Source: Actinomadura sp. KC345 (GTDB taxonomy: Bacteria; Actinomycetota; Actinomycetes; Streptosporangiales; Streptosporangiaceae). From it: a DNA stretch of 47,406 nt. The notes under the pieces are model-generated. The model was not told the DNA's origin. It saw only the letters and a list, made by a program, of their open reading frames with translations, and did no database searches. Both the position numbers and the translations under genes were made by a program. The stretch's first letter is position 1, and each line of letters opens with the position of its first letter. Shown here one piece after another: positions 3,990-21,986 of this stretch. The stretch is from NCBI RefSeq assembly GCF_004348515.1, contig NZ_SMKH01000022.1, forward strand, positions 1 through 47,406, in the 5' to 3' direction.

Positions 3990-4466
3990 TCACATGTTGC
4001 GGGCGCCGGATCTGATCGCGTCGCGGATCCTGGCATAGGTGCCGCAGCGGCAGATGTTGCGGAGCTCGTCGAGATCGGCGTCGGTGATGTCGCGGCCTTC
4101 GGACCGGACCTGGCGGACCTTGGCCACGGCGGACATGATCTGTCTTGGCTGGCAGTAGCCGCACTGGGCGACGTCCCGCTCCAGCCAGGCCTCCTGCATG
4201 GGGTGGAGGTCGCGGCCCACGGTGGCGGGAAGGCCCTCGATGGTGACGACCTCGTCGTCCGGGCCGACCTGGGAGACCGGCACAGAACAGATGTTGACCG
4301 CCTTGCCGTTGACGTGGGAGGTGCAGGCCTGGCAGACGCCGATGCCGCAGCCGTACTTGGGGCCGGTGACGCCGAGCAGGTCGCGCAGCACCCATAGCAG
4401 GCGGACGTCGTCCTCGGCCTGCACGGTGATCTGCTCGCCGTTGAGCCTGAAGGTGTGAGTCGGCAC
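3990..4466 (-). CDS. [2Fe-2S] subunit of molybdenum hydroxylase (IorA/OxiA-like)
   Basis: Electron-transfer subunit of a xanthine-oxidase-family enzyme, 158 residues, carrying two [2Fe-2S] clusters. All eight cysteines are visible: the plant-ferredoxin type set C40, C45, C48 and C60 (CGIGVCQAC then C), and the four-helix domain set C102, C105, C139 and C141 (CGYC and CRC). This short form pairs with IorB-type large subunits that lack a separate FAD subunit. The gene begins 11 bases after the large subunit at 4478-6781 and is surely co-transcribed. Closest known types are isoquinoline 1-oxidoreductase alpha and OxiA, which is linked to oxidation of rubber-derived aldehydes in Streptomyces sp. 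K30. The substrate here is inference, suggested by the Lcp gene at 20727-21986. Confidence 0.9.
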   Translation of the reverse strand: MPTHTFRLNGEQITVQAEDDVRLLWVLRDLLGVTGPKYGCGIGVCQACTSHVNGKAVNICSVPVSQVGPDDEVVTIEGLPATVGRDLHPMQEAWLERDVAQCGYCQPRQIMSAVAKVRQVRSEGRDITDADLDELRNICRCGTYARIRDAIRSGARNM

Positions 4467-4477
4467 GTCGGGCTCCT

Positions 4478-6781
4478 CTAGAAGGCGCGGTCAAGGCCGT
4501 CGGTCGGGGACTGCGGGGTGGACGGCTCCAGCGGGAAGGGATCGAAGGAGAGCGTGGCGTGGTTGATGGGGAACCGGGTCGGCATCGTCCCGGTGGCGCG
4601 GGCGTACGCGCAGGCCACGGCGGCCAGGGCCGGGGCCACCGCGAGTTCGCCCGCGCCGCCGGGCTCGTCGCCGCTGGGCGGCATGACGATCACGCGGGTC
4701 TCCAGCGGGGTGTTCCACTGGCGGGTGTAGAAGTCGTTGTCCCAGCTGCCTTCGAGCGGGATGCCGTCCTTGATGTGCAGGCTGGAGGTGAGCGCCATCG
4801 CGATGCCGTCGCTCAGGCCGCCGATCATCTGGGCGTCCAGCCCGCGCGGGTTGATCGGCAGTCCCACGTCCACCACGACCAGGGCGCGCGTCACGCGGGG
4901 CCCGGTGACGCCGTTCCTGATCGGGCGGTCGACGGTCTCGGGACGGCAGTCGAGCTCGACGAGGACCGCGCAGGCGGACCGGTACTCGGCGGCCAGGGCG
5001 ATGCCCTGGGCGACTCCGTCGGGCAGGGACCGCCCCCAGTCGCCCTCGGAGGCCGCCTTGTCCAGGACGGCGCGCGTCTTGGAGTGCTCCAGGAACCGAC
5101 GGCGGAAGGCCACCGGGTCCTCGTCCAGTTCGGCGGCGAGCCGATCCACGACCAGTTCCCGTGCGCACACCACGTTCGGTGAGTAGACGTTGCGCATGCT
5201 CCCGGTCTTGAACTTCAGCGGCACCTCGGTCAGCGTCTGCCTGGTCTGGCCGAACTTGTAGGGCGTCGACTGGCTCAGATGGAAGAAGACCTGGGCGATG
5301 GCGTCGTTGACGACGATCGGGATGTCGGCCGCGTTGGCGGTGACCATGTCGCCGAAGCCGTGGCTGAAGCTGGTCTGGGTGCTGACGTGCCGCTGCTCGT
5401 AGCCGACCACGTCCCCGCCGCGGTAGGCGGCGCGGACACGGGAGACGCTCATCGGATGCGTGCGTCCCTGGCGGACGCTGTCTGTCCGGGACCAGGACAG
5501 CTTGACCGGTTTGCCCATCTTCTTGGAGATATCCGCCGCCTCCACCGCCGCGTCGGTGTGCAGCCGCCGCCCGAACGAACCGCCACCCTCCACCACGTGC
5601 ACCTTGACGGCCGACACCGGCAGGCCCAGGCGCTTGGCGATCTCGCTCTGCGCGTCGCCCGGGACCTTCAGGCTGGCCCAGATCTCGGCACCGCCGGCGC
5701 GCACGTCCGCGACCGCGACGTCAGGTTCCAGCGGGGAGTTGCTGGCGAACATGAAGGCGAACTCGGCGTCGACGGTCTTGCTGAACAGCGGCGGGCCCGA
5801 CACCCTCGGCACCGCCTTGCGCAGCTTGGCCAGCACCGTGTCGTCGGACTCCCCGGCCACCGGACCGGGACGCCAGGTCACCTCCAGGGCCCTGACCGCG
5901 TCGATGCACTGGCCGAACGTCCGCCCGCGCACCGCCACCCCGTGCTTGAGCGCCGCGACGTCGGTGATCCCGGGCATGGCCCGCACGGCCGCGGCATTGC
6001 CCACCGACTCGACCGTCCCGTCGATGGTCGGCGGTCGCCGCACCATCGTCGGCAGGGCGTCCGGGACGTCCAGGTCCATGGCGAACTTCTTGCGTCCCGT
6101 CACGGCGGCCAGGGCGTCCACCCGGTTCGTCGGCTTGCCCACGACGGTGAACCGGGACATCGTCTTCGGCGACGCCGAGACCCGGGTGGTGCGCGACACC
6201 GCGGCGGCCTTCGCCAGCGACCCGTAGGACGCCCGCCTGCCTCCGCCCAGCACCGCACCGTCCTCGGTGGTGAGCTTGGACGCGTCCACGCGCCAGGCTC
6301 GCGCGGCGGTCGCCACCAGCCGCCTCCGCGCGATCGCCGCGGCCGTCCGCACCGGCGTGTAGAGCGAGCGGACCGATGTGGAGCCGCCGGTGAACTGGTT
6401 GAACAGCAACTCGGGCCGGGCGTCGGAGAGGCTGACGGTGACCTTGTCCAGCGGGAGGTCCAACTCCTCGGCGATCAGCATCGCCACGGTCGTGGTGATG
6501 CCCTGCCCCACCTCGGCACGGGGCAGGGCGAACGACGCCGTGCCGTCCTCGTGCACCTGGACGGCCACCAGCCCCGACGTCGGCGCCGACGCGAGCCGCA
6601 CCAGGTCACCGACGTCGAAGACCTCCTCCGGCTGGGGAAGGGACGGCCCCCGCGCCTCGGCCGGATCACCGGTCCACTGCACGGCGACGGCCAGTGTCGG
6701 CGCCGTGATCAGATAGCCGAGGAACCTCCGGCGCCGCGGCCCCTCGCCGGGTTCGTTCGATCGTGGAGGATCGTGCTCCAT
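4478..6781 (-). CDS. Molybdopterin-binding large subunit of molybdenum hydroxylase (IorB/OxiB-like), Tat-exported
   Basis: Catalytic subunit, 767 residues, expected to hydroxylate an aldehyde or N-heterocycle using water and a molybdopterin cofactor. The N-terminus has a twin-arginine signal, RRRRFLGY at residues 16-23 followed by a hydrophobic run, so the folded complex is exported. The cofactor-binding loop VEGGGSFGRR and the C-terminal GGAGELAVAP with the presumed catalytic glutamate are present. Length is similar to IorB. The start is fixed by GGAGG four bases upstream and by an in-frame TAA slightly further up. The small subunit lacks its own signal and probably leaves by hitch-hiking on this one. 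Aldehyde oxidation in rubber breakdown is one candidate role, isoquinoline-type substrates another. Confidence 0.9.
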   Translation of the reverse strand: MEHDPPRSNEPGEGPRRRRFLGYLITAPTLAVAVQWTGDPAEARGPSLPQPEEVFDVGDLVRLASAPTSGLVAVQVHEDGTASFALPRAEVGQGITTTVAMLIAEELDLPLDKVTVSLSDARPELLFNQFTGGSTSVRSLYTPVRTAAAIARRRLVATAARAWRVDASKLTTEDGAVLGGGRRASYGSLAKAAAVSRTTRVSASPKTMSRFTVVGKPTNRVDALAAVTGRKKFAMDLDVPDALPTMVRRPPTIDGTVESVGNAAAVRAMPGITDVAALKHGVAVRGRTFGQCIDAVRALEVTWRPGPVAGESDDTVLAKLRKAVPRVSGPPLFSKTVDAEFAFMFASNSPLEPDVAVADVRAGGAEIWASLKVPGDAQSEIAKRLGLPVSAVKVHVVEGGGSFGRRLHTDAAVEAADISKKMGKPVKLSWSRTDSVRQGRTHPMSVSRVRAAYRGGDVVGYEQRHVSTQTSFSHGFGDMVTANAADIPIVVNDAIAQVFFHLSQSTPYKFGQTRQTLTEVPLKFKTGSMRNVYSPNVVCARELVVDRLAAELDEDPVAFRRRFLEHSKTRAVLDKAASEGDWGRSLPDGVAQGIALAAEYRSACAVLVELDCRPETVDRPIRNGVTGPRVTRALVVVDVGLPINPRGLDAQMIGGLSDGIAMALTSSLHIKDGIPLEGSWDNDFYTRQWNTPLETRVIVMPPSGDEPGGAGELAVAPALAAVACAYARATGTMPTRFPINHATLSFDPFPLEPSTPQSPTDGLDRAF

Positions 6782-6871
6782 GGGGCCTCCGGGCGGTCGG
6801 GGCGGGATGTAACTGCCCGCTTACTAGGGAACGCGGCAAGCATGGCATACCGCCGCCCTCCTTTGAAGACT

Positions 6872-6892
6872 TTATTGGCGTATCGCCAATAA
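6872..6892. promoter_or_regulatory. 21-base palindrome upstream of the molybdenum hydroxylase operon
   Basis: Arms TTATTGGCG (6872-6880) and CGCCAATAA (6884-6892) are perfectly complementary with a TAT centre, about 90 bases upstream of the large-subunit start. The size and symmetry resemble a dimeric repressor operator. It stands out as AT-rich in GC-rich DNA. No regulator gene is adjacent. Confidence 0.5.
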
Positions 6893-7040
6893 GACGACGC
6901 AGACCGCCGCGGGTCACGCGGCGTTGATCCAGGAGCGGACGCGGCCGGCGGGCTCGGCGGCTCTCGCGCTCTCAAGATCTTCTATTGCTTGGCACCGCGT
7001 CGGTAACGTAGTGCGGGGCGCGGTCGGTCGGAGGGGGAGC

Positions 7041-7466
7041 ATGGGGTACGGGAGTCACGCGAAGCGTGGTGTGCTGGCTGTCATAGGCGGCACTGTTCTG
7101 CTGACCGGTATCGCGCTGCTCGTCCTGCCGGGGCCGGGGATGCTCCTGGTACTGGCCGGGCTGCTCATTCTCGCGCGCGCGATCCCGTCCGTGGAACGGT
7201 TCGTCGAGCCGGTCCGGGTACGGGCGATCCAGGCGGCCGAGGAGAGTGTGACCTCGTGGTGGCGCCTCACCGGCTCGGTGCTGACGGGGCTGGCCCTGAT
7301 CGGCGCGGGCGTGGTGTGGGGTCTGGATCCGCGGCTGCCGAGCGTCGGGTGGCGGCTGCCGCTCGGCGGATGGAGCACCGGATCGGGCCTGATCCTGTCC
7401 GGGATCATCATCTTCGCCCTCATGTACTGGAGCTTCCGGCGCGTCAGGGCGCGGCGGCCCGGCTGA
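7041..7466 (+). CDS. PGPGW-type small transmembrane protein (TIGR02611-like)
   Basis: Integral membrane protein of unknown function, 141 residues. The family hallmark LPGPGMLLVLAGLLILA lies near residues 29-45. Two further hydrophobic segments follow a short amphipathic region (around LTGSVLTGLALIGAGVVWGL and SGLILSGIIIFALMYW), and the protein ends in a basic tail (RRVRARRPG). I chose ATG at 7041 because GGAGGGGG precedes it; an in-frame ATG at 6924 would add a poorly hydrophobic leader without a ribosome site. It is divergent from the molybdenum hydroxylase operon and followed after 61 bases by another membrane protein gene. Confidence 0.75.
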   Translation: MGYGSHAKRGVLAVIGGTVLLTGIALLVLPGPGMLLVLAGLLILARAIPSVERFVEPVRVRAIQAAEESVTSWWRLTGSVLTGLALIGAGVVWGLDPRLPSVGWRLPLGGWSTGSGLILSGIIIFALMYWSFRRVRARRPG

Positions 7467-7527
7467 CCTCCGCCGCGCCGAGTTTCACGCCGCGGAATTG
7501 ATCCGGGCGGCGGGGTATGACCGTGCA

Positions 7528-7962
7528 ATGGGTATGGGCATTGTTCTTCGACTCCTCGTCGCCGCGGGACTCGCGGCGGACGCCGTCATCCACTGGCGTT
7601 TCGCGCCTGACATGGCACCGGGACCCAACACCCCCACCGACACCATCCCGGGGGACACGCTGTTCTACGGCCAGGCCGCCGCGGCCGCCGCGGCGGCCGT
7701 GCTCGTCCTGGTGTGGGCGCGCAGGTGGACGTACGCGATCGCGTTCCTGGTCGCCGCGAGCGCGGCCGGCGCCGTCATCCTCTACTACTTCGTCGATGTC
7801 GGGCAGCTGGGCCCGCTGCAGAACATGTACGACCCGTCCTGGTACATGGACAAGACGATCAGTCTCGCGGGCGAGGGCGTCGCGGCGCTCGCGGCGCTCA
7901 TCGGCTTCTTCACGGTCAAGCGGACGCGGGACCGGGAAGCGGAACCCGTTCCCTACCCGTGA
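7528..7962 (+). CDS. Hypothetical four-helix membrane protein
   Basis: Unrecognised 144-residue protein with four predicted membrane helices: VLRLLVAAGLAADAVIHW at the N-terminus, a very alanine-rich second helix (QAAAAAAAAVLVLVW), a third (IAFLVAASAAGAVILYYFV), and a fourth near the C-terminus before a charged tail KRTRDREAE. The pattern resembles small actinobacterial membrane proteins of unknown role. The start is uncertain: ATG at 7528 and ATG at 7534 are both possible, and neither has a strong ribosome site. Confidence 0.65.
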   Translation: MGMGIVLRLLVAAGLAADAVIHWRFAPDMAPGPNTPTDTIPGDTLFYGQAAAAAAAAVLVLVWARRWTYAIAFLVAASAAGAVILYYFVDVGQLGPLQNMYDPSWYMDKTISLAGEGVAALAALIGFFTVKRTRDREAEPVPYP

Positions 7963-8074
7963 CGCCCGGTGGAGTGGACGCCGGAAGGCCGCATCCGGCC
8001 GCATGCCGCCGGATGCGAGGGCGCCCGCAGGGGACAGTGGATATCGTTGCGTCTCCTGGCCCGCGGAGAGTCCC

Positions 8075-8875
8075 ATGCCACCGAATTTCGACACCGGCGT
8101 CCCCAATATCGCCCGGATCTACGACGCGATGCTCGGCGGCAAGGACAACTTCGCCGCCGACCGGGACGCCGCCGACCGGCTGACCGAGGTGGAGCCGCTG
8201 GCGCCCCTGTACGCGCGCCAGCACCGGGAGTTCATCGGACGGGCCGTGCGGCTCGTGGCCGGGTACGGGATCCGCCAGTTCCTCGATGTCGGGACCGGTC
8301 TGCCCACCATGGACAACGTTCACCAGATCGCCCACCGGCAGGTGCCCGGCTCGCACGTGGTGTACGTCGACAACGACCCGAACGTGTGCGCCCATGCCCG
8401 TGCGCTGCTGGCCGACGATCCCGGTACCGTCGCGGTCGTCGAGGAGGACCTGCGGCGTCCGGAGGCGATTCTCGCCCATCCCGAGACCCGCCGCCTGATC
8501 GCCTTCGACGAGCCGCTGTGCGTGCTTGTCACGGCCGTCCTGCATTTCATTGCCGACACCGATGATCCGCACCGGTCGATCAGGGTCCTCACCGAGGCGA
8601 TGTGCCCGGGAAGCCATCTGGTCATCTCCCATATCACCGATGAGGAGGTGCGCCGGACGAGGCCGGACGACAACCGGACGGGAATGGACGTGTTCGCGAA
8701 GAGCAACGCCCCCATGCATCCGAGGAACGTCCCCGATATCGAACGGTTCCTGGACGGCCTGGAAAAGCTCGATCCGGGTCTCGCGTGCATTTCAGAATGG
8801 GCCGCGCCGGCCCCCTCGGTCATCCGGGACGACCTTCGCGACACCTGGCTCGGAGCGGTGGCGCGCAAGCCCTGA
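8075..8875 (+). CDS. SAM-dependent methyltransferase (PF04672/DUF574 family)
   Basis: Predicted S-adenosylmethionine-dependent methyltransferase, 266 residues, of a family greatly expanded in actinomycetes with mostly unknown substrates. The diagnostic N-terminus PNIARIYDAMLGGKDNFAADR is split here by me as PNIARIYDAML and GGKDNFAADR (residues about 9-29). The SAM-binding FLDVGTGLPTMDNVHQIA lies near residue 70, and the acidic strand-end VVYVDNDPNV follows. GGAGAG lies just upstream of the ATG. The gene abuts the P450 gene tail to tail with no spare base, 8875 against 8876. Confidence 0.85.
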   Translation: MPPNFDTGVPNIARIYDAMLGGKDNFAADRDAADRLTEVEPLAPLYARQHREFIGRAVRLVAGYGIRQFLDVGTGLPTMDNVHQIAHRQVPGSHVVYVDNDPNVCAHARALLADDPGTVAVVEEDLRRPEAILAHPETRRLIAFDEPLCVLVTAVLHFIADTDDPHRSIRVLTEAMCPGSHLVISHITDEEVRRTRPDDNRTGMDVFAKSNAPMHPRNVPDIERFLDGLEKLDPGLACISEWAAPAPSVIRDDLRDTWLGAVARKP

Positions 8876-10057
8876 TCAGGGGGCGGTGACCGTCATCGGG
8901 AGGGACGCGAACCCCCGGATGTGGATGGACTGGCGGCGCCGTCCGGCGGAAGGGTTCAGATCGTAGTCGGCCACCCGGTCCACGATCTCTTCCAGGACGA
9001 TCCGCGCCTCAAGCCGGGCCAGCGCCGCACCCAGGCAGAAATGCGGGCCGCTGCCGAAACTCGCCATTTCGGCGGTGTCCCGGTCCAGGTCGTACTCCTC
9101 TGCCCTTTCGAAGACCCTCGGGTCCCGGTTCGCCGCGCCGGGGAGCAGCATGATCCGGCTGCCGGCGGTCAGCCGCGTCCCGTGCAGTTCGACGTCCTCG
9201 GTGAGGGTCCGCAGCTGGGTCGGCGCGGGGGTGTCGTAGCGCAGAGTCTCCTCGACCCACCCGGCGACCCGGCCGTCGAACGCCTTGGCCCGCTGGTCGG
9301 GGTGCCGCCACGCCCAGTACACGGCGTTGCCGAGGAGGTTGGCGGTCGTCTCGTTCCCCGCCCCGACCAGCAGGTGGAGGAACGCGATGATCTCCTCGTC
9401 GGTCAGCGAGGACTCGTCCACGGCGGCGTCCAGCAGCGCGGAGGCCAGGTCGTCCCGCCGGTGCCGATGCCGGTCCGCCACGATCTCGGCGAAATGCCCC
9501 ACCAGTTCCAGGAGCGCGGTGGCGCCCTCCTGGCTGATCTCCTGCGTCCCCGGTTCGCGGTGCAGCGCCGCGTCCGCCAGCCGGCGCAGCTCGGGCCGGT
9601 CCGCCTCGGGGACGCCGACCAGCTCGGAGATGACGTCGGTGGGCAGCGGCGCCGCGATGTCGGTGACCAGGTCGAACTCGCCGCGTTCCAGCGCCGCCTC
9701 GAGATGGCGCCGGGCGATCGCCCGGATGCCGGTCTCCAGCTCCGCGATCCGCCGGGGCGTGAACGCGCGCGACACCAGCCGGCGCATCCGGGTGTGCTCG
9801 GGCGGGTCCATCGCGATGAACGACATCGCCTTGCGCGCCTGCGGTCCCCAGGCCCGCTGCTCCAGCAGCGGCCCGTTGGCACTGGAGAACCGCGTGGCAT
9901 CGCGGAACGCGGAGACCACGTCGGCGTGGCGGGACAGCGCCCAGAAGTCCAGCTCCTCGCTCCGGTAGAGCGGCGCCTCCTCGCGCAGCCGCGCGTACAC
10001 GGGGTAGGGGTCCGCGTCGGCCTGGACGAAATCGTAGGGATTGAACTCCACGCCCAC
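8876..10057 (-). CDS. Cytochrome P450
   Basis: Soluble bacterial class I P450 monooxygenase, 393 residues, which would need separate ferredoxin and reductase partners; none is next to it. Visible motifs are HTRMRRLVSRAF (C-helix, about 88-99), the I-helix GAGNETT at 232-238 containing the oxygen-activating acid/threonine pair, E270-x-x-R273 in EETLR, and the haem loop FGSGPHFCLG with cysteine ligand C341. GTG at 10057 is preferred, with GGGAGG six bases upstream; GTG at 10051 is possible but less well spaced. It is divergent from the hydrolase gene at 10215. Substrate unknown. Confidence 0.92.
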   Translation of the reverse strand: MGVEFNPYDFVQADADPYPVYARLREEAPLYRSEELDFWALSRHADVVSAFRDATRFSSANGPLLEQRAWGPQARKAMSFIAMDPPEHTRMRRLVSRAFTPRRIAELETGIRAIARRHLEAALERGEFDLVTDIAAPLPTDVISELVGVPEADRPELRRLADAALHREPGTQEISQEGATALLELVGHFAEIVADRHRHRRDDLASALLDAAVDESSLTDEEIIAFLHLLVGAGNETTANLLGNAVYWAWRHPDQRAKAFDGRVAGWVEETLRYDTPAPTQLRTLTEDVELHGTRLTAGSRIMLLPGAANRDPRVFERAEEYDLDRDTAEMASFGSGPHFCLGAALARLEARIVLEEIVDRVADYDLNPSAGRRRQSIHIRGFASLPMTVTAP

Positions 10058-10214
10058 GTGCGGCCTCCCTGTCGCCTGGTGACCACCATCTCCCGACTCG
10101 TTCCCGAACACCACACCATGATCGTCAGGCGACCGATAGCGGCCAGCGGCCGCGCACCGCCGGCGCGGCCCGGTGAGCCGCATGCGGCCCGGCCCACGGG
10201 GTAGCCCCCGCGGT

Positions 10215-10880
10215 ATGAACATCGCCGACGTCACCATCGATCTTGAAGATGCGGCGCTGCCGGGTGATCTGGCCCTTCCGGACGAGCCCGGCGGTGTGGT
10301 GCTGTTCGCGCACGGCAGCGGAAGCTCGCGGCACAGCCCGCGGAACCGGGCCGTCGCGGCCGGCCTCAACGACGCGGGGATCGGCACCCTGCTGATCGAC
10401 CTCCTCACCGCGCAGGAGGACGAGGTCGACGTCGCCACCGGCGAGCTGCGCTTCGACATCGCCCTGCTCACCCGGCGCCTGGTCGGCGCGATCGACTGGC
10501 TCGCCGCCGCGCCGCCGACGGCCGGGTCGCCGATCGGCCTGTTCGGCGCGAGCACCGGGGCCGCCGCCGCCCTGGCCGCGGCGGCGCGACGTCCTGGACG
10601 CGTCGGCGCGGTGGTGTCCCGCGGAGGCCGCCCCGATCTGGCCGGGGACGCCCTCGAACGCGTCAGCGCCCCGGTGCTGCTCATCGTCGGCGCACGGGAC
10701 CCGCAGGTCCTGCGCCTGAACGACGACGCGGCCGGACGGATGCACGCCGCCGAGCACAAGCTGGAGGTCGTCCCGCGCGCCTCGCACCTGTTCGAGGAAC
10801 CCGGCACGCTCGAACAGGTGACGAACATGGCCGCCCGCTGGTTCGACCGCTACCTCACCCAACCCGCCACGGTGCCCTGA
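10215..10880 (+). CDS. Alpha/beta hydrolase (dienelactone-hydrolase-like)
   Basis: Predicted cytoplasmic hydrolase, 221 residues. The nucleophile elbow is GASTG with S113, and D162 (GARDPQV) and H191 (ASHLFEEPG) complete a plausible triad in the right order. The oxyanion-hole region HGSGSSRHSPRN at 33-44 is typical of a family annotated as dienelactone-hydrolase-like, sometimes found fused to phosphoribosyltransferases in actinomycetes. The usual dienelactone hydrolase cysteine nucleophile is replaced by serine, so ester or lactone hydrolysis is more likely than true dienelactone chemistry. It is convergent with the acyl-CoA ligase, 34 bases away. Confidence 0.8.
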   Translation: MNIADVTIDLEDAALPGDLALPDEPGGVVLFAHGSGSSRHSPRNRAVAAGLNDAGIGTLLIDLLTAQEDEVDVATGELRFDIALLTRRLVGAIDWLAAAPPTAGSPIGLFGASTGAAAALAAAARRPGRVGAVVSRGGRPDLAGDALERVSAPVLLIVGARDPQVLRLNDDAAGRMHAAEHKLEVVPRASHLFEEPGTLEQVTNMAARWFDRYLTQPATVP

Positions 10881-10914
10881 CCACACGCCCCGGGGTTCCG
10901 AGCGCAGTGGGCCG

Positions 10915-13943: not shown

Positions 13944-13958
13944 CAGAACACCGTTCTG
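13944..13958. promoter_or_regulatory. Inverted repeat ahead of livG, possible PucR operator
   Basis: CAGAAC-acc-GTTCTG forms a perfect 6-base inverted repeat 29 bases before the livG start, in the intergenic region shared with pucR. Position suggests a regulator site; identity of the binder is inference. A clear ribosome site, AGGAGG, follows at the end of the region just before the ATG at 13987. Confidence 0.35.
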
Positions 13959-13986
13959 TGGTGACCGCCCGCGCTCAGGAGGCCGG

Positions 13987-14760
13987 ATGCTGGACGTTCA
14001 CGATCTTACCGTCCGCTTCGGCGGCATCACCGCACTGGGGGGTGTCGGCTTCGCCGTGCGGAGCGGTGAGATGGTCGGCCTGATCGGACCCAACGGTGCC
14101 GGCAAGACCACCTTGTTCAACTGCCTGACCCGCCGGTACGACGCGGACGGCGGCACGGTCACCTACGAGGACGGCGCCCAGAACAAGCGGGACCTCCTGA
14201 CCGTCCCTCCGCACGCCATCGCCGCGCTCGGCATCGCCCGCACGTTCCAGAACCTCGGGCTGTTCCAGCGGATGTCCGTGCGGGACAACGTGATGGTCGG
14301 CGCGCACCCCCACGGCAGGGCCGGGTTCGTCGGCGCGAGCCTGCGGCTGCCGTCCGTCCGCGGTGAGGAGCGGAGGCTGCGCGGCGAGGCCGGCGAGCTG
14401 CTCAAGCGGCTGGACCTGGCCGGCATCGCCGACCATCCCGCCGCCGGGCTGCCGTTCGGCATCCTCAAGCGGGTCGAGCTGGCCCGCGCGCTGGCCGCCA
14501 AACCGCGGCTGCTCCTGCTGGACGAGCCCGTCAACGGCCTCAGCCACGGCGAGATCGACGAGTTCGCCGGCTGGCTCCAGTCGATCCGCGACGACTTCGA
14601 CGTGACCGTGATCGTCGTCGAGCACCACATGGGGTTCGTGATGGGCACCTGCGACCGGGTCGTCTGCCTGGACTTCGGCAAGAAGATCGCCGAGGGCTCG
14701 CCCGAGGAGGTCCAGCGCGATCCCGCCGTCATCGAGGCCTACCTGGGGACCGCGGCATGA
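13987..14760 (+). CDS. livG: ABC transporter ATP-binding protein, LivG-type
   Basis: One of two ATPases of a branched-chain-amino-acid-type (HAAT) importer, 257 residues. The Walker A GPNGAGKTT is at residues 34-42, Walker B LLLLDEP is present, and the switch histidine is in VIVVEHHMGFVM. The ABC signature is unusual: LPFGILKRVELARAL instead of the LSYG(Q)QRR-type sequence. The D-loop region reads NGLSHGE, also atypical. The gene starts a five-gene operon in the order ATPase, ATPase, permease, permease, binding protein, with overlapping or near-touching genes. Induction through PucR is likely from the divergent layout. Confidence 0.9.
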   Translation: MLDVHDLTVRFGGITALGGVGFAVRSGEMVGLIGPNGAGKTTLFNCLTRRYDADGGTVTYEDGAQNKRDLLTVPPHAIAALGIARTFQNLGLFQRMSVRDNVMVGAHPHGRAGFVGASLRLPSVRGEERRLRGEAGELLKRLDLAGIADHPAAGLPFGILKRVELARALAAKPRLLLLDEPVNGLSHGEIDEFAGWLQSIRDDFDVTVIVVEHHMGFVMGTCDRVVCLDFGKKIAEGSPEEVQRDPAVIEAYLGTAA

Positions 14761-15566
14761 GGGAGCCGAAGAGCGCCCCGGAGGCGAGCGGGGAGCACAG
14801 CATGAGCGAGGCGAAGGAATCGACGGAGACCGCGGCCGAAGGCGCCGGCCAGGGCTACCTGGAGGTGGACGACCTCCATGCGGGCTACGGCGACGTGCGC
14901 GTCCTGCACGGGGTGAGCCTGCGGGTCGGCAGGGGCGACATCTGCGCGATCCTCGGGCCGAACGGGGCGGGCAAGACGACCCTCCTGCGGGCGCTGTGCG
15001 GGATGATCCGCGGGCGCGGCGCCGTCCGCCTCGACGGAAGCCCGCTGCCCGCGCGCTCACCGGACGCCGTGGCGCGGCGCGGGGTGGCGCACGTCCCCGA
15101 GGGACGCGGGACGTTCATGCCGCTGACGGTCGAGGAGAACCTGCGGCTCGGCGCGTACGCACGGCGGAACCGGGCCGAGGTCCAGGCCGACATGGAACGT
15201 GTCTACGGCTACTTCCCGGTGCTGAAGGAGCGGTTCAAGCAGGAGGCGGGCAGCCTCAGCGGCGGCGAGCAGCAGATGCTCGCGATCGGGCGGGCGCTGA
15301 TGTCGCGGCCCCGGCTCCTGCTGCTGGACGAGCCGTCCCTCGGCCTGGCCCCGCTGGTGGTCAGGGAGCTGTTCGGCATCGTCCAATCGATCAACCAGGA
15401 GGAGCGGACCACCGTGGTCGTCGTGGAACAGAACGCACATCTGGCCCTGGGCATCGCCGGGCAGGCGCACGTGCTGGAGAGCGGCCGGATCGTGCTGTCG
15501 GGGTCGGCGGCGGAGATCAAGGCCGACGAGCAGGTCGCCCAGTCCTACCTCGGATACCGGATCTAG
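14757..15566 (+). CDS. livF: ABC transporter ATP-binding protein, LivF-type
   Basis: Second ATPase of the importer, 269 residues, with canonical motifs: Walker A GPNGAGKTTLLRALCG near residue 67, signature LSGGEQQMLAIGRAL, Walker B LLLLDEPSLGLAP and switch histidine in VVVVEQNAHLAL. It overlaps livG by the four-base ATGA. An internal ATG at 14802 with GGGGAG upstream is an equally good start and would remove a low-complexity charged leader of 15 residues. In Liv systems LivG and LivF form a heterodimer beneath the two permeases. Confidence 0.92.
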   Translation: MREPKSAPEASGEHSMSEAKESTETAAEGAGQGYLEVDDLHAGYGDVRVLHGVSLRVGRGDICAILGPNGAGKTTLLRALCGMIRGRGAVRLDGSPLPARSPDAVARRGVAHVPEGRGTFMPLTVEENLRLGAYARRNRAEVQADMERVYGYFPVLKERFKQEAGSLSGGEQQMLAIGRALMSRPRLLLLDEPSLGLAPLVVRELFGIVQSINQEERTTVVVVEQNAHLALGIAGQAHVLESGRIVLSGSAAEIKADEQVAQSYLGYRI

Positions 15567-15568
15567 AC

Positions 15569-16450
15569 ATGGCCGACTTCCTGCAGCAGTTCGTGGCGGG
15601 GCTGGGCGCCGGCGCGATCTACGCGAGCCTGGCCCTCGCGCTCGTGCTGATCTACCAGTTCACCGGCATCGTCAACTTCGCCCAGGGCGAGCTGGCCATG
15701 TTCGCGACCTACATCGCCTGGACGTTCGTCAACGCCGGCATGTCGTTCTGGCTCGCGCTGGTCCTCACGCTGGCGATCTCGTTCGCCGGAGGCATGCTGA
15801 TCGAACGGGTGATCATCCGGCCGGTGGAGGGCGCCCCCGTGCTGACCCTCGTGATCGTCACCGTGGGGCTGTTCATCTTCGTCAACGCCGCGGCGGGCTG
15901 GATCTGGACGTTCCTGATCAAGGACTTCCCCAACCCGTTCCCGTCCGGTGCGTTCCGCGCCGGCGGGGTCAGCCTCGGCTACTCCACGCTCGGCGTGCTC
16001 GCCGTGGTGGGCGGCGTGATGGGCCTGCTCTACCTGCTGTTCCGCTACACCAAGGTCGGCCTCGGCATGCGCGCGGTGGCCACCAACCCCGACTCGGCGC
16101 GGCTGGTCGGCATCCGGGTCGGCTGGATGCTGGCGTTCGGCTGGGGCCTGGCCGCCATGGTCGGCGCGGTGTCGGGCGTCCTCGTCGCGCCGCTGCTGTT
16201 CCTGGAGCCCAACATGATGGGCGGCGTCCTGATCTACGCGTTCGCCGCGGCCACCCTCGGCGGCTTCGACAGCCCGCTCGGCGCCGTGGTCGGCGGCCTG
16301 ATCGTCGGCGTCGCCGAGACGCTCGCCGGGTCGTACGTGGACGCCATCGGCTCCGACCTGAAGATCGGCGTACCGCTGGCGATCATCCTCGGCGTCCTGC
16401 TGTTGCGCCCCCAAGGCCTGTTCGGACGAGCGGCGGTGGAGAGAGCATGA
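15569..16450 (+). CDS. livH: ABC transporter permease, LivH-type
   Basis: Membrane permease of the HAAT importer, 293 residues, with about eight hydrophobic helices. The N-terminal AIYASLALALVLIYQFTGIV and NFAQGELAMFATYIAW near residues 14-45 are typical of LivH, as are MRAVATNPDSARLVGI and GGFDSPLGAVVGGLIVG toward the C-terminus. It begins two bases after the livF stop and ends overlapping livM by ATGA, so expression is tightly coupled. Confidence 0.92.
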   Translation: MADFLQQFVAGLGAGAIYASLALALVLIYQFTGIVNFAQGELAMFATYIAWTFVNAGMSFWLALVLTLAISFAGGMLIERVIIRPVEGAPVLTLVIVTVGLFIFVNAAAGWIWTFLIKDFPNPFPSGAFRAGGVSLGYSTLGVLAVVGGVMGLLYLLFRYTKVGLGMRAVATNPDSARLVGIRVGWMLAFGWGLAAMVGAVSGVLVAPLLFLEPNMMGGVLIYAFAAATLGGFDSPLGAVVGGLIVGVAETLAGSYVDAIGSDLKIGVPLAIILGVLLLRPQGLFGRAAVERA

Positions 16451-17520
16451 GCGAGTCCGTGGAAGCCACGCAGACCACGCGGGCGGAGGCGGCAGAGCCC
16501 GCCGGGCGGCGGACCGGGCCGGAGACGCCACGGGAACGGATCGTCGCGTCAGGCGTGAGCCAATGGCGGCGGATCCTGTTCGGCGTCTTCCTGCTGCTGG
16601 CGGTGGCGGCGCCGTTCCAGCTGGTCCCGTTCCGGGTCTTCCAGCTCACGATGGTGATGGTCTACGCGGTCGCGCTGATCGGGCTGAACCTGCTGGTCGG
16701 CCACGCCGGGCAGATCTCCCTGGGCCACGGGGCGTTCTTCGCGGTCGGCGCGTACGGCGCGGCCATCATGATGTTCCACTGGGAACTGCCCTACCTGCTG
16801 ACGTTCCCGCTCGCGGCCGCGCTGGCGTTCGTGATCGGGCTGGCGTTCGGGATTCCGGCGACCCGGCTCCACGGGCTGTATCTGGCCTTGGTCACGCTCG
16901 CCATAGCGATCTTCCTCGTCCCGCTGCTGAAGCGGTTCGAGTCGGTGACCGGCGGGTCGATGGGCCTCACGCTGGAGAAGCCGGAACCGCCCGGATGGAC
17001 GGGACTCGCGCCGGACCAGTGGCTGTACTTCCTGGCCCTGGCCGGGACGCTCCTCGCGTCCGCGGCGGCGTACTTCCTGCTGCGCTCGCGGGTCGGCCGG
17101 GCGCTGCACGCCGTCCGCGACAACGAGGCGGCGGCCGAGGTCATGGGCGTCAAGCCCGCCTCCTACAAGCGGCTCGCGTTCGCCTGGAGCGCGATGTTCG
17201 CGGGCGCGGCGGGCTGCCTCTACACGTGGACGATCGGGTTCGTCTCGCCCGACTCCTTCACCGTGAACCTCTCGATCACGCTGCTGGCCGGGATGGTGAT
17301 CGGCGGCCTCGGCTCGGCCTGGGGGCCGCTGCTCGGCGGCCTGTTCGTGATGTTCGTGCCGAGCCTGTCCCAGGACCTCAACAAGGCGGCGCCGGGGGTC
17401 ATCTTCGGGCTGCTGATCATCACGGTGATGTACGTCGCCCCGACCGGGCTGGCCGGACTGGGCGGACGTACCGAGCAATGGCTCAAGAAGAAGCTCGGCA
17501 GGATCCTCCGGAAAGGGTAA
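16447..17520 (+). CDS. livM: ABC transporter permease, LivM-type
   Basis: Second permease of the importer, 357 residues, with a hydrophilic N-terminal tail of about 35 residues before the first helix. LivM hallmarks are GLNLLVGHAGQISLGHGAFF near residue 75, the coupling region RVGRALHAVRDNEAAAEVMG, and VIGGLGSAWGPLLGGLFV. GGAGAGAGC precedes the ATG. The C-terminus is basic (KKKLGRILRKG), as usual for a cytoplasmic end. Confidence 0.92.
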   Translation: MSESVEATQTTRAEAAEPAGRRTGPETPRERIVASGVSQWRRILFGVFLLLAVAAPFQLVPFRVFQLTMVMVYAVALIGLNLLVGHAGQISLGHGAFFAVGAYGAAIMMFHWELPYLLTFPLAAALAFVIGLAFGIPATRLHGLYLALVTLAIAIFLVPLLKRFESVTGGSMGLTLEKPEPPGWTGLAPDQWLYFLALAGTLLASAAAYFLLRSRVGRALHAVRDNEAAAEVMGVKPASYKRLAFAWSAMFAGAAGCLYTWTIGFVSPDSFTVNLSITLLAGMVIGGLGSAWGPLLGGLFVMFVPSLSQDLNKAAPGVIFGLLIITVMYVAPTGLAGLGGRTEQWLKKKLGRILRKG

Positions 17521-17524
17521 GGGC

Positions 17525-18859
17525 ATGCGTCGATCAACGGGAAGCGGCCGGTCACTGCGAGGCGGCGGGTCAGTGCGAAACCGGGGGATGCTGCGGCGGG
17601 GAACGGCGGTGTCGGCGGCCGTGCTGCTGGCGGCGACGACCGCGGCGGCCTGCGGCGGGCGCGGCGACGACGGCGGCGGCACCGCCTCCGGTGAGTGCGA
17701 GGGGCAGCAGACGACCGGTATCACCGACTCCACGATGAAGCTCGGCGGCATCTACCCGCTGTCCGGCCCGGCCTCCGCCTACGGCGACATCCCGAAGGGC
17801 ATCAAGGCCTACTTCGACTACGTCAACGCCGAGAAGAACGGGCTCGACGGCCGCAAGGTGGAGTTCGTCGTCCGCGACGACGGCTACCAGCCGCCCAAGG
17901 CGGTCGAGGAGGCCCGCCGGCTCGTGGAGCAGGAGCAGGTGTTCGCGCTGTTCCAGACCCTCGGCACGCCGTCGACGACGGCGACCTGGGACTACGCGAA
18001 CCAGCGGAAGGTGCCGCAGGTCTTCGTGGCCACCGGCGCCTCCAAGTTCGGCAGCGACGACAAGCATCCGTGGACCATCGGCTGGCAGCCGAACTACGTC
18101 TCCGAGGGGCGGGTCTACGCCCAGCACCTGAAGACGGAGAAGCCGGAGGCCAAGGTCGCGGTCCTGTTCCAGAACGACGACTTCGGCGAGGACCTGCTGG
18201 GCGGCTTCAAGAAGGCGATCGAGGGCAGCAAGATCAAGATCGTCCAGGAGAAGAGCTACGAGGTCACCGACCCGAGCGTCGAGCCGCAGATGCGCGACCT
18301 GGCGGGTTCGGGCGCCGACGTGTTCCTCAACATCACCACGCCGAAGTTCGGCTCCCAGGCCCTGGCCGCCGACGCCAAGATCACGGACTGGAACCCGCTG
18401 CACATCCTGAACAACGTCGCCGCGTCCGTCACGGTGCTGAAGCCGGTCGGATTCGAGAACGTCCAGGGCGTCGTGTCCTCCACGTACTACAAGGACCCGA
18501 ACGACCCGCAGTGGGCGGACGACGCGGAGATGAAGCTCTACAAGGAGAAGATGAAGAAGTACGCGCCGGGCGCCGATCCGGCCGTTCCGTACCACGCCTT
18601 CGGCTGGGCGGTGGCCAGCAGCTTCCACAAGACGATGGACGCCGCCGAGTGCAAGACCCGCGAGGGCCTGCGCGACTCGGTGCGCAGCCTGAACAACGTC
18701 GAGGTGCCGATGCTGCTGCCCGGCGTGACCATGCAGACCGGCGAGGGCGACGGCTTCCCGATCGAGTCCATGCAGATGATGGAGTTCAAGGACGAGCGCT
18801 GGTCCCTGACCGGCGAGGTCATCGACACCCGCAAGCAGTTCGGCCCGGTCGGCGAGTGA
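17525..18859 (+). CDS. livK: ABC transporter substrate-binding lipoprotein, LivK-type
   Basis: Extracytoplasmic binding protein of the importer, 444 residues. A basic N-terminus and hydrophobic run end in a lipobox with C43 (TTAAACGG), so the mature protein is a membrane-anchored lipoprotein. The start could also be GTG at 17573 or ATG at 17588, which would shorten the long leader. The periplasmic-binding fold type I is indicated by KLGGIYPLSGPASAYGD, VVRDDGYQPPKAVEEARRLV and VAVLFQNDDFGEDLLGGF. Such proteins bind branched-chain amino acids, amides, or aromatic and other carboxylic acids; the ligand here is unknown, and the nearby CoA ligase favours a carboxylic acid. Confidence 0.9.
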   Translation: MRRSTGSGRSLRGGGSVRNRGMLRRGTAVSAAVLLAATTAAACGGRGDDGGGTASGECEGQQTTGITDSTMKLGGIYPLSGPASAYGDIPKGIKAYFDYVNAEKNGLDGRKVEFVVRDDGYQPPKAVEEARRLVEQEQVFALFQTLGTPSTTATWDYANQRKVPQVFVATGASKFGSDDKHPWTIGWQPNYVSEGRVYAQHLKTEKPEAKVAVLFQNDDFGEDLLGGFKKAIEGSKIKIVQEKSYEVTDPSVEPQMRDLAGSGADVFLNITTPKFGSQALAADAKITDWNPLHILNNVAASVTVLKPVGFENVQGVVSSTYYKDPNDPQWADDAEMKLYKEKMKKYAPGADPAVPYHAFGWAVASSFHKTMDAAECKTREGLRDSVRSLNNVEVPMLLPGVTMQTGEGDGFPIESMQMMEFKDERWSLTGEVIDTRKQFGPVGE

Positions 18860-18918: not shown

Positions 18919-18925
18919 CACCGGC

Positions 18926-20521
18926 TCACGGGGCAGGCTGCGCGGGGGTGTCGAACCAGGTGCAGCCTTCGGGGCGGGGTTTGTCTCGGCCGTATTCGGA
19001 GCAGGGGAGGGCGGCCAGGACCTTCATGAGGTTGCCGAAGGGGGAGAAGATCGTCCAGCCGGACGGATGCTCGCAGTCCGGGAGGGTGGCCGGGTCGGAT
19101 CTGACCGTGCCCCAGGACGAGGTGTTGTCCTGCCAGCAGTTGCCGTCGCCCTGCTCGTCCCACCACACGTCCAGGCCGTTGGGGAGGGTCCGGCCGTCCG
19201 GCGCGACGCCGAAGGTGTTGTTCGTGTAGCGGTTGCGGTGCGAGGTGTCGCGGAACTTCAGCAGGTCGTTCTCGCCGCGGAGCGGGGCCGGTACCCAGAT
19301 CTGCCGGAAGCCGCTGCGCCAGTTGTCGTACAGGCGGTTGTGCACGTAGTCGTTGTCGTTGCCGCCGCCCAGGAGGAGCCCGGTGCCGACAGGGACGGGC
19401 GGGGCGGGGCAGACGACGCCGCGTTCGTGGCCCCGGTCCCTGGGGAGCTTGGCGCAGGTGCCGTCCCAGACGTTGCCGTAGTAGTTGACGTTGTTGCTGT
19501 GGATCAGGTTGTTCTCGAACGTCGCGTGGTTCTGCGGCAGGCCCGGGTGGCCGGGGAAGGCGCTGTCCATCGAGACGCCCGCCGAGTTGTGGTGGAACGT
19601 GTTGTCGTGCGCGTAGACGGAGTCCCCGGCGGTGCCCGAGTAGCCCAGTGCGTTGTGGTGGGAGTCGCAGCGCTGGATCTCGATGGAGTGTCGGCGGCCG
19701 TTGAGCGGTGAGGCCGAGCCCGGGTAGATCCCGGCGTCGCCGTTGTGGTGGCCTTCGCAGTCGGTGTAGAGGCCGTGGTCGCTGGCGAAGGTGAGGAAGC
19801 CGTACTCCTCGTTCCACCGGGCCAGCGCTCGGTCGATCACGAAGCCGTCCTGCTCCAGGATGTAGACGCCGTTGAACTCGAACAGCTGCGTGGTGATGTT
19901 GCGCAGGTAGAAGCCGTCCGCGCGGTCCGAGCGGATCCCGTTGAGCTTGGCCCACGTCCCGTCGGGCCTGAACCCGCCCTCGATGACGACGTCGGTGATC
20001 TCACGGCCGGTTCCCTCCAGCTGGAGATCGCAGCGGGGGCTGTCGCACGAGTAGTCGTCGTCGTCCGGGGTCTCGTCTCCGAAGACCGCGACGAGCTGCT
20101 GGAGGTTCGGGCAGGCGTACTGCTGGGCGTAGGTCAGGAGGTCCTGCCCCTCCAGCGGGGCGCACTCCGGGCTCGGGGCGGCCCGGCTCGGCTCCTCGCG
20201 GTACGTGCCGGGCAGCACGTAGATCGTCGTGCCGCGCTCGGTGACGTCGTTCACCGCCGCCTGGATGTGCCGGTACGAACATTCGGCGAGGAGCCGCTCG
20301 TTGAGCGTCTTCAGCCGGCCGGTGTAGCCCTCGATCAGCCGGGCCGACTCCGGTTTGCACACCACCAGCCGGGGTGAGGCCGGCGCCTCGCGGTAGGCGG
20401 GGACCTTCCCCGTCCCCGCCGGAAACCTGACCTCGCGTTCGGCGTGGGCGAGTGCCGGGGCGGTCATCAGCCCCAGGACCACGGCGAACACGACTGCGAC
20501 GACTGCGGTGCGCTTGCCCAT
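18926..20521 (-). CDS. Secreted right-handed parallel beta-helix protein
   Basis: Predicted secreted protein, 531 residues, with a signal peptide (MGKRTAVVAVVFAVVLGLMT, then APALA before HA). The body shows asparagine-rich coils typical of parallel beta-helix repeats: NGIRSDRADGFYLRNITTQL, NGVYILEQDGFVIDRALA, DCEGHHNGDAGIYPGS, NNLIHSNNVNYYGNVW and NRYTNNTFGVAP. Such proteins are often polysaccharide lyases or adhesins, but I see no recognisable catalytic set and cannot assign an activity. An in-frame ATG at 20542 is an alternative start. It lies downstream of the rubber oxygenase gene on the same strand, 205 bases away, with a hairpin between. Confidence 0.75.
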   Translation of the reverse strand: MGKRTAVVAVVFAVVLGLMTAPALAHAEREVRFPAGTGKVPAYREAPASPRLVVCKPESARLIEGYTGRLKTLNERLLAECSYRHIQAAVNDVTERGTTIYVLPGTYREEPSRAAPSPECAPLEGQDLLTYAQQYACPNLQQLVAVFGDETPDDDDYSCDSPRCDLQLEGTGREITDVVIEGGFRPDGTWAKLNGIRSDRADGFYLRNITTQLFEFNGVYILEQDGFVIDRALARWNEEYGFLTFASDHGLYTDCEGHHNGDAGIYPGSASPLNGRRHSIEIQRCDSHHNALGYSGTAGDSVYAHDNTFHHNSAGVSMDSAFPGHPGLPQNHATFENNLIHSNNVNYYGNVWDGTCAKLPRDRGHERGVVCPAPPVPVGTGLLLGGGNDNDYVHNRLYDNWRSGFRQIWVPAPLRGENDLLKFRDTSHRNRYTNNTFGVAPDGRTLPNGLDVWWDEQGDGNCWQDNTSSWGTVRSDPATLPDCEHPSGWTIFSPFGNLMKVLAALPCSEYGRDKPRPEGCTWFDTPAQPAP

Positions 20522-20645
20522 GCCCGGGAATATGAACGGCATTCGCAATCTTGCCCAGACCCGCCCACCGGCCACATCGGGCCATCCGGTCCCGCGCGCC
20601 CCGGTAGGTCACCGGTCTCCGCGAGAAGTCGCACGGGAAACGGGG

Positions 20646-20677: not shown

Positions 20678-20726
20678 GTTCGTTGCGGTGCCGCGTTCAC
20701 GGGGAGCCGGTCGGGGGAGCCGCTCG

Positions 20727-21986
20727 TCAGTCGTCGGGGTAGTCCGGGTTGTTGCCCGTCGGGATCTCGATGCTGATGGGGAGGTTTCCTCCGGACAGGA
20801 CGAGCAGGGCCGCCACGCGGAGGATCTCGTCGAAGAGCCAGTAGAACTGCTGCAGGAGCCCAGGCCCGTCCTCCAGTTCGAGCAGGCCCTCGCGGACCCG
20901 GATGAAGGGCTCCCAGGCGACCTCGAAGACCGTGTCCCAGAAGGGGTACCTGCGGATGTGCAGCCATTCGGCGATCTCGTCACCGAGCACGTACCGGGTG
21001 AGCGCGCCGAGGATGGGCTTGGTGACGTACTTGAGGGGGCCGCCCGGGACGATCGTGGCCAGGTTGAGCAGCATGTCGGCCAGCTTGATGCCCTCGGGCG
21101 TCGGGGCCAGGATCGGGTCCAGGACCTGCCTGGCCTGGGCGTTGGCCTCGTCCCACGAGTTGGGGATGTACTCGTCCAGCACGCCGAGCAGGTGCGCGGT
21201 GACCTGCCAGGAGTGCAGGAAGGCCGCGGAGTCGTCGGCGGGGATCGGGATCTTCCACTTGACGAGGTTCTGCATGACCGTCGTGGGCAGGCTGTGCCAG
21301 GTGACCATGATGTCGGCCTGGCTGATCGGCTTCTCCTCGTCGGCGACCTTCTGCCAGTGCGGGGACTGCGGCAGCAGGTGGCGCACGCCCGCGTGCGCCA
21401 GCCGGGTCTTGACGCAGGTGACGATCATCTCGCCGTTGGGCTTGAAGGCGTTCGCCGTCCCGATGTCGTACCCGAGCTTGGCGGTCTTGGTGATGCGGTC
21501 CCTCATGTCCGCGCCGCCCTTGGAGTAGTACACGGCGCGCGCCTCGCGGGGGATGACCGTGCTCATCATCCCGCTGGCGAACCCGTAGGTCACCCCGAGG
21601 TAGAGGCCCCGCCTCTCGTTGAAGTCGACCGCCGCGTCGAGCTTGCCCTGGTCGGTCCAGGAGGGCATCTGCCGGGCCTGCTCGATCCAGTTGCGCAGTT
21701 CGGCCGGCAGCCCGCTCGGCAGCGTCTGGCCGTTCGTCCTCCAGGCCCTCAGCTTCTCGTTGACGGCGGGGACGCCGCCCCCGTCGAGCAGCGAGGCGAC
21801 CAGCTGGTCGACCTCCGGGTCCCACACGCCCTTGGGGTCGGCGCCGGCGCCCGCGCCCGCCACCGAGCCCTTGGGGGACCACGTCCACAGCGCGGACGCC
21901 TGGGCGGGAGCCGCCGCGCTCAGCGCACCGAGTGCGCCCAGCGCCCCGCCGGTCATCAGCACGTTGCGCCTGCTGGGTGTTTCCAT
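20727..21986 (-). CDS. lcp: Latex clearing protein (rubber oxygenase Lcp)
   Basis: Secreted b-type-haem dioxygenase that cleaves the double bonds of poly(cis-1,4-isoprene) into oligomers with aldehyde and ketone ends. The 419-residue product has a Tat signal (SRRNVLM at residues 5-11, then a hydrophobic run ending APAQA). Counted from ATG at 21986, it has E148, R164, K167, T168, R195, H198 and R202. From memory these are the same numbers as the functional residues of Lcp from Streptomyces sp. K30 (K167 and H198 as haem ligands, E148 as base). The motifs read RITKT and RLAHAGVRHLLPQSP. GAGGAGG lies nine bases upstream of the ATG. A divergent TetR gene matches the layout of known lcp loci. A general MpaB/DUF2236 oxygenase is less likely given the residue match. 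Confidence 0.9.
   Translation of the reverse strand: METPSRRNVLMTGGALGALGALSAAAPAQASALWTWSPKGSVAGAGAGADPKGVWDPEVDQLVASLLDGGGVPAVNEKLRAWRTNGQTLPSGLPAELRNWIEQARQMPSWTDQGKLDAAVDFNERRGLYLGVTYGFASGMMSTVIPREARAVYYSKGGADMRDRITKTAKLGYDIGTANAFKPNGEMIVTCVKTRLAHAGVRHLLPQSPHWQKVADEEKPISQADIMVTWHSLPTTVMQNLVKWKIPIPADDSAAFLHSWQVTAHLLGVLDEYIPNSWDEANAQARQVLDPILAPTPEGIKLADMLLNLATIVPGGPLKYVTKPILGALTRYVLGDEIAEWLHIRRYPFWDTVFEVAWEPFIRVREGLLELEDGPGLLQQFYWLFDEILRVAALLVLSGGNLPISIEIPTGNNPDYPDD

Follow-up and report, generated by a model that had tools for sequence, protein, structure and literature searches.

A palindromic putative operator may connect lcp, oxiBA and mce genes in a dispersed regulon of Actinomadura

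The 47,406-nt contig NZ_SMKH01000022.1 of Actinomadura sp. KC345, one contig of an 8.27-Mb, 600-contig genome and referred to as the window in the following, carries lcp, the gene of a rubber oxygenase (latex clearing protein), as well as oxiBA, the genes of a two-subunit molybdenum (Mo) hydroxylase. Comparison of this stretch with related genomes points to Lcp, OxiAB and an importer of the Mce type as members of one dispersed regulon and pathway, probably directed at polyisoprene or a related isoprenoid, a reading that we hold to be slightly better than even (probability about 0.55). That OxiAB and Lcp may work together had been proposed in a first-pass annotation of the window, which placed both in a single rubber-degradation locus. 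Their cooperation gains support here, since a palindrome ahead of oxiBA is found again in lcp and mce promoters of the genus, whereas the single locus does not. The features on which this reading draws are the following:

3989-6892, reverse strand: oxiBA cassette including its putative operator, between an SSS transporter gene and a PGPGW protein gene (comparison with relatives)
3990-4466, reverse strand: oxiA, [2Fe-2S] small subunit of the two-subunit Mo-hydroxylase (Pfam Fer2 and Fer2_2)
4478-6781, reverse strand: oxiB, Mo-binding large subunit (Pfam MoCoBD_1 and MoCoBD_2)
6873-6891, no strand: palindrome TATTGGC-N5-GCCAATA, putative operator, core of a 21-bp inverted repeat at 6872-6892
20727-22028, reverse strand: lcp, rubber oxygenase (PF09995 and match to 5o1l)
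22022-22058, no strand: candidate TetR-type operator of lcp, TGATACAC...GTGTATCA (promoter alignment, inverted repeat and pattern comparison)
22158-22874, forward strand: TetR regulator gene, divergent from lcp (Pfam TetR_N, E=1.5e-13)

The palindrome and its target genes

The 21-bp inverted repeat between oxiB and the PGPGW gene is perfect, lies 92 bp upstream of the oxiB start and represents the single match to this form in the window at up to three mismatches, with no match in 100 shuffled sequences. Its core was found ahead of oxiB in all four oxiB-bearing Actinomadura genomes. Searches of 60 genomes of the genus with TATTGGC-N5-GCCAATA yielded 52 sites in 29 genomes, and the backwards control yielded none in the 60. 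When the target of a site is taken to be the next gene whose start is projected to lie between -120 and 600 bp, lcp follows 10 of the sites, a MlaE/YrbE gene 15 and oxiB four. Together these amount to 26 distinct sites, three of which serve two of the lcp, mce and oxiB genes.

All 15 MlaE sites were rechecked, and 11 of them precede long Mce operons, which comprise at least four Mce-cluster genes in addition to two MlaE-type genes; one of these operons is located on another contig of the window genome. As for the remaining sites, the Mce operon of genome G002 is incomplete, the sequences fetched from G049 and G051 were too short to tell, and the site in G001 precedes a remnant of MlaE (141 residues) that is not accompanied by Mce genes, for which reason G001 was rejected as a second case of divergent lcp and Mce genes. 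In G045, a single palindrome lies between a divergent Mce operon and lcp, and in G047 a single palindrome lies between a divergent Mce operon and oxiBA. The MlaE proteins of these two genomes are 84% (G045) and 92% (G047) identical to the one of the window genome. A second, degenerate copy of the palindrome was present directly downstream of the first in 11 of the 12 mce promoters that were read by eye (loci L187, L190, L195, L197, L199, L200, L208, L217, L219, L222, and L227).

Further targets among the 52 sites are an unclassified membrane-type protein (u294/u384; three sites), a STAS/u360 pair (two sites) and a DJ-1 protein (one site), with one site serving both a globin gene and u384. Since the queries for u294, STAS, DJ-1, globin and MpaB were themselves drawn from palindrome sites, their counts are descriptive. 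Truncated globins (PF01152) stand behind the palindrome at L193, L196, L201, L203, L207, L213, L216, L220, and L221, and in G048, G021, and G031 a palindrome-linked globin gene is found about 4 kb beyond the counterpart of the first SSS gene of the window. MpaB-type relatives, which share the Pfam family of Lcp (PF09995), follow the palindrome both inside and outside the genus (L189, L204, L214, L258, and L259). The third palindrome of the window genome, at 25853-25871 of another contig (L218), lies near gene ends in a stretch conserved in G047, and no promoter could be assigned to it.

Outside the genus the palindrome was detected in seven of 116 genomes (a family-level set of 120 minus four Actinomadura), a set that played no part in defining the regulon. 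In five of the seven, a gene for MlaE, for u294 (about 40% identity) or for an MpaB relative (33-34%) is projected to start no more than 450 bp from the site, and the other two have none of the query genes beside it. In the non-Actinomadura oxiB loci L042-L104, the best match to the palindrome had two mismatches.

Lcp and OxiAB

The lcp product matched the Pfam family MPAB_Lcp_cat (PF09995, E=7.7e-14) and, over residues 18-428, Lcp of Streptomyces sp. K30 (PDB 5o1l; phmmer E=5.3e-140). The seven key residues with which the first-pass annotation had credited it are indeed kept, as E148, R164, K167, T168, R195, H198, and R202 of 5o1l are all identical in the alignment (7/7, counted by eye). The gene is the sole match in its own genome at E<=0.001. 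By its sequence, the protein is thus a member of the Lcp family and, as far as can be predicted, a real rubber-cleaving enzyme. Among the 60 genus genomes, 40 contain lcp.

The Mo-hydroxylase of the IorAB/OxiAB type, which had been annotated as exported by twin-arginine translocation (Tat), was recovered by Pfam as a pair of a 2Fe-2S small subunit (OxiA, 158 residues) and a Mo-binding large subunit (OxiB, 767 residues), with no gene for a FAD subunit among the neighbours; the N-terminus of OxiB (...RRRRFLGYL...) is Tat-like by eye. OxiB is 93% identical to the protein of Actinomadura sp. 7K507, 87% to that of A. rifamycini and, over 751 residues, 59% to OxiB of Dactylosporangium sp. AC04546 (L088), the gene of which lies downstream of lcp genes and is assigned to one cluster with lcp3 and lcp2 in extracts of the published description (PMC11169899). 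In its own genome, OxiB is the single full-length match, five further matches spanning 105-201 residues. The gene was detected in four of the 60 genus genomes and likewise in four of 65 in a larger genus set.

A scan of genome contigs for OxiB resulted in 65 loci. Of the 57 loci L040-L096 (all Actinomycetota), 23 contain lcp near oxiB within the retrieved flank, and none of these is from Actinomadura; the status of a locus as not lcp-adjacent depends on the length of this flank, as a few contigs end too close to oxiB for a decision. Upstream of oxiB the flank was below 25 bp for L089 and L090 and below 3 kb for L071 and L082. In the window, oxiBA and lcp are 14 kb apart and not adjacent, and in the other three Actinomadura genomes with oxiBA, the 20-22 kb of sequence retrieved around these genes contained no lcp. 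A quick tree with 65 rows (SH-aLRT, the Shimodaira-Hasegawa-like approximate likelihood ratio test, as only support; L093, in which oxiB is split over two frames, and L105 and L106, duplicates of L040 and L041, left out) placed all 23 lcp-adjacent OxiBs in one 31-row clade with a support of 100. The OxiB of the window falls outside this clade and groups with the three other Actinomadura OxiBs. The first-pass annotation had regarded clustering with quinoline or isoquinoline enzymes, far from OxiB, as evidence against its proposal; half of this was observed, in that the protein lies outside the lcp-adjacent clade, and no characterised isoquinoline enzyme is among the rows of the tree. Amycolatopsis thermalba and Streptomyces aculeolatus each possess one lcp-adjacent and one separate copy of oxiBA.

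Of the 27 loci outside the clade, 10 (L045, L046, L066, L068, L078, L079, L080, L082, L083, and L090, from Amycolatopsis, Janibacter and Nocardioides) have a PucR-like regulator gene at most 3 kb from oxiBA, versus one of the 31 inside it. The PucR-linked loci may represent a second, lcp-independent context of OxiAB. The PucR of the window was rejected as regulator of OxiAB, as it belongs to an older gene block and no PucR-like gene was found at the other Actinomadura oxiBA loci.

Two types of lcp promoter

The flanks of 17 of the 44 lcp genes and the promoters of 37 of the 44 were compared. A TetR gene is located beside lcp in 15 of the 17 relatives' loci, and an inverted repeat with GATACNC is conserved in the TetR-linked lcp promoters of the genus. 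Ten of the 37 promoters contain the exact palindrome, with the TetR operator pattern at two or more mismatches; in the other 27 the palindrome has at least four mismatches and the TetR pattern at most one in one orientation or the other, although this pattern was drawn from the same promoters on which it was scored. In one of the 27 it is found at an unusual position. Judged by these matches, there are two putative types of lcp switch, which do not overlap among the promoters examined. On a quick tree of 37 Actinomadura Lcps and three outgroups the state of the palindrome changes at least three times, and these changes are forced by well-supported branches.

In nine of the ten palindrome-type lcp promoters, the left arm TTGGC(A/G) is followed at a distance of 17 nt by TAGNGT, with TAAGGT taking this place in the tenth (by eye). 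This geometry resembles that of -35 and -10 elements, so that the palindrome appears to overlap the -35 element of lcp. Ahead of oxiB, the TetR pattern matched with two mismatches in the window, where it overlaps the palindrome, one in G047 (L105; at most 300 bp upstream of oxiB at 9974, beside the palindrome), three in G022, and four in G058. A TetR operator common to lcp and oxiBA was rejected, as the pattern ahead of the window oxiB was found only at two mismatches. The reverse-strand open reading frame 22104-22940 was dismissed as a conserved gene upstream of lcp, since it is the antisense frame of the TetR gene.

Insertion of oxiBA into a conserved gene block

The other genes considered around oxiBA and lcp are:

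3-1730 and 2040-3857, forward strand: SSS transporter genes (Pfam)
6924-7466, forward strand: PGPGW protein gene
7517-8875, forward strand: S-adenosylmethionine (SAM) methyltransferase gene
8876-10828, reverse strand: P450 gene
10915-12420, reverse strand: acyl-CoA ligase gene
12371-13951, reverse strand: PucR gene
13987-18859, forward strand: LivG/F/H/M/K genes
18926-20575, reverse strand: beta-helix protein gene
22943-31215, past the lcp-TetR pair: DAO oxidase, LacI, ADH, TRAP transporter (DctQ, DctM), and a TIM-barrel/HPPD fusion-type enzyme

Coordinates and Pfam assignments agree with the earlier annotation in that ligase, PucR and Liv genes lie between lcp and oxiAB; the genes for the PGPGW protein, SAM methyltransferase, P450, beta-helix protein and TetR are additions to that annotation. 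The order SSS-SSS-PGPGW-SAM methyltransferase-P450-ligase-PucR-Liv-beta-helix is found whole in G048 and mostly in G004, G021, and G031, all four of which are without oxiB at E<=1e-100. Its PucR-ligase-Liv part also occurs in G008, where neither lcp nor oxiB was found at the thresholds used, and orthologues of the ligase at 76% or more are present in 13 of the 60 genus genomes. The DNA flanking oxiBA in the window runs on without these genes in G021, G031, and G048, with 95-438 bp between the two sides, and in G004 about 2 kb of other DNA separates the matches to the two sides. Window positions 3989-6759 (2771 bp) are 94% identical to the oxiBA locus of G047, with unrelated flanks and the oxiA stop codon forming one edge of the common stretch, and the loci of G022 and G058 have some flank in common. 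From these comparisons it follows that oxiBA occupies different chromosomal places in the window genome, in G047 and in the G022/G058 pair. We therefore describe oxiBA, on the strength of these alignments, as an insertion of about 2.8 kb into a conserved block and as a likely movable cassette. Since the synteny is conserved without oxiBA, the P450/ligase/PucR/Liv block (8876-18859) is judged not to belong to the predicted Lcp-OxiAB system.

The distance from lcp to the ligase gene is 87 kb in G021 and 92 kb in G048, with order and orientation as in the window, and 1.4-3.2 Mb in G006, G046, and G058. G047, the closest relative, keeps the TetR-DAO-LacI-ADH-TRAP side of lcp and not the beta-helix/Liv side. 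Only in the window genome are lcp, the Liv genes and oxiBA seen close together. The closeness of lcp and oxiBA on the chromosome looks accidental; that of lcp, the Liv genes and oxiBA could also, less likely, stem from an assembly join. The genes from DAO to DctM adjoin lcp in G047 as well, and the group at 22943-31215 looks like a separate catabolic cluster of the sugar or quinate type. The P450 reading frame contains about 270 residues ahead of the P450 domain, so either the true start lies further downstream or the protein has an unusual extension at its N-terminus.

Proposed pathway and points against it

Sequence comparison establishes which genes are present, that oxiBA is inserted and that its palindrome occurs again at lcp and mce; what follows is a proposal built on these results. 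We propose that two parts of a dispersed pathway lie in the window and that their proximity is due to chance. Lcp, as an exported enzyme controlled by a TetR switch of its own, would cleave polyisoprene to oligomers whose ends are aldehydes and ketones, as expected from the function of its family. OxiAB, which is related to the K30 enzyme and belongs to a second lineage, could oxidise such aldehydes to acids outside the membrane. The importer encoded by the Mce operon, which has the palindrome in common with oxiB and, in ten other genomes, with lcp, might take up the oligomers. A single regulator presumably binds the palindrome and would thereby coordinate cleavage, oxidation and import despite the scattered genes; polyisoprene is the probable substrate. 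More tentatively, and at somewhat below even odds, a single regulon of scattered genes may cover globin supply in Actinomadura in addition to Lcp, OxiAB and Mce import, by means of an undescribed regulator and the palindrome, with lcp promoters rewired between palindrome and TetR control at least three times and oxiBA moving as a ready-wired cassette.

How oligo-isoprenoids enter the cell after cleavage by Lcp and which role OxiAB plays are open points in rubber biodegradation. By linking Lcp and OxiAB to one specific Mce operon, the common operator names a candidate importer and offers a handle on the regulator. Gene closeness in the window pointed to doubtful partners (Liv importer, PucR, and ligase), whereas the search with the operator led to a partner that had been put forward before in other rubber degraders.

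Several observations weigh against a common regulon and pathway. The palindrome was not found ahead of lcp in the window, the best match within 260 bp having seven mismatches, and was therefore rejected as operator common to lcp and oxiBA there; the two do not have it in common in this genome and are linked via orthologues. Among the genus sites, no genome has the palindrome ahead of both oxiB and lcp. The oxiB promoters do not display the -35 geometry (by eye), and the one-mismatch TetR match in G047 suggests that the separation of the two switches may be incomplete. Nine sites precede a truncated globin gene, two a flavohaemoglobin-like gene and three a gene for an MpaB relative, and seven of the 52, including one of the three in the window genome, were without an assigned gene. 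A MftR-like TetR gene beside the palindrome of G038 was rejected as the regulator, since it occurs in one of the 60 genomes at E<=1e-35. No Lcp was detected at E<=1e-40 in 22 of 35 OxiB-bearing genomes searched, so that OxiAB is wider than rubber degradation and not tied to it; this search covered 36 genomes (35 with OxiB relatives) chosen as mostly not lcp-adjacent and took in 36 of the 57 loci L040-L096 plus L104, with 21 lcp-adjacent loci left out. Finally, none of eight Actinomadura tested formed clear zones in one screen, as given in extracts of the report (PMC8538451).

Alternative explanations

The palindrome might mark a wider regulon related to oxygen, haem or nitric oxide, in which OxiAB and Mce act on some other lipid or aldehyde, so that Lcp and OxiAB would be co-regulated without forming one rubber pathway. 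Lcp, the MpaB relatives and the globins are haem proteins, and the sites at globin, flavohaemoglobin-like and MpaB genes would fit such a regulon, as would the OxiB genomes without a match to lcp, even though lcp-adjacent loci were left out of that search. Nevertheless, mce, lcp and oxiB genes account for 26 of the 52 sites, and an Mce operon of the same kind lies directly divergent to lcp in G045 and to oxiBA in G047. Moreover, OxiAB and Mce are not haem proteins. We thus regard the wider regulon as unlikely, though it is the alternative that fares best.

Pure coincidence would mean that OxiAB is an unrelated Mo-hydroxylase, e.g., for aromatic or N-heterocyclic aldehydes, and that the palindrome at lcp has nothing to do with it. 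The position of the window OxiB outside the lcp-adjacent clade, the frequency of PucR-like genes at out-of-clade loci and the lack of a match to lcp in 16 of the 26 genomes with an out-of-clade OxiB would be compatible with this. By contrast, from 52 sites and 44 lcp genes only about 0.003 palindromes would be expected within 720 bp upstream of lcp (estimate), compared to 10 seen, albeit in related genomes that are not all independent, and coincidence would also have to account for the at least three changes of the palindrome on the Lcp tree. We consider it improbable. The new and fuller linear arrangement of the earlier annotation, i.e., one 18-kb polyisoprene locus composed of oxiAB, ligase, PucR, Liv importer and lcp, with activation of the acids by the ligase and their uptake by the Liv system, has the proximity of all these genes in its favour but appears very improbable, given that the block is conserved without oxiBA in relatives and partly in a genome without a match to lcp, that lcp is far off in other genomes and that the 21-bp palindrome stands solely ahead of oxiB in the window.

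Comparison with known systems

Lcp, OxiAB and Mce systems for rubber are each already known. The literature searched contained no description of an operator common to Lcp, OxiAB and Mce, of its being gained or lost repeatedly at lcp, or of an oxiBA cassette that already carries its operator. No paper joining mce, lcp, rubber and regulon was retrieved, and text searches for lcp/TetR/operator, mce/promoter and the half-site, judged from their listings, contained nothing recognisable as the palindromic operator. The following statements refer to extracts of the cited papers. In a review, the thermophilic isolates mentioned in connection with rubber degraders include Actinomadura sp. (PMC8235351).

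The TetR gene beside lcp in the window is reminiscent of the lcp regulators LcpR(VH2), LcpRB(A3(2)), and CRP(VH2) (PMC8235351). The published operators of LcpRB and CRP, TATGTTAAT-N2-AAAATCACA and TGTGAN6TCACT, differ from TATTGGC-N5-GCCAATA (PMC8235351).

Similar to the lcp-oxiB-oxiA clusters of Streptomyces sp. K30, Actinoplanes OR16 and Dactylosporangium AC04546 (PMC9108482, PMC11169899), the window encodes an Lcp with all of the named residues and OxiB followed by OxiA with Tat-like export, and the sizes are alike (767/158 residues for OxiB/OxiA here versus 760/158 in AC04546). Unlike in these clusters, oxiBA of the window is not lcp-adjacent, its OxiB lies outside their clade, and it appears to be a movable cassette with its own putative palindromic operator.

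In Nocardia, mce genes have been described downstream of lcp (PMC9070631), and Mce systems take up polyisoprene products in adhesive rubber degraders (PMC6311187). For strains containing mycolic acids, OxiAB was not detected according to the extracts of PMC11169899. Actinomadura resembles Nocardia in having an Mce operon tied to lcp, the two being divergent neighbours in G045. In contrast to Nocardia and the adhesive degraders, Mce and OxiAB co-occur in Actinomadura and seem to have a putative operator in common.

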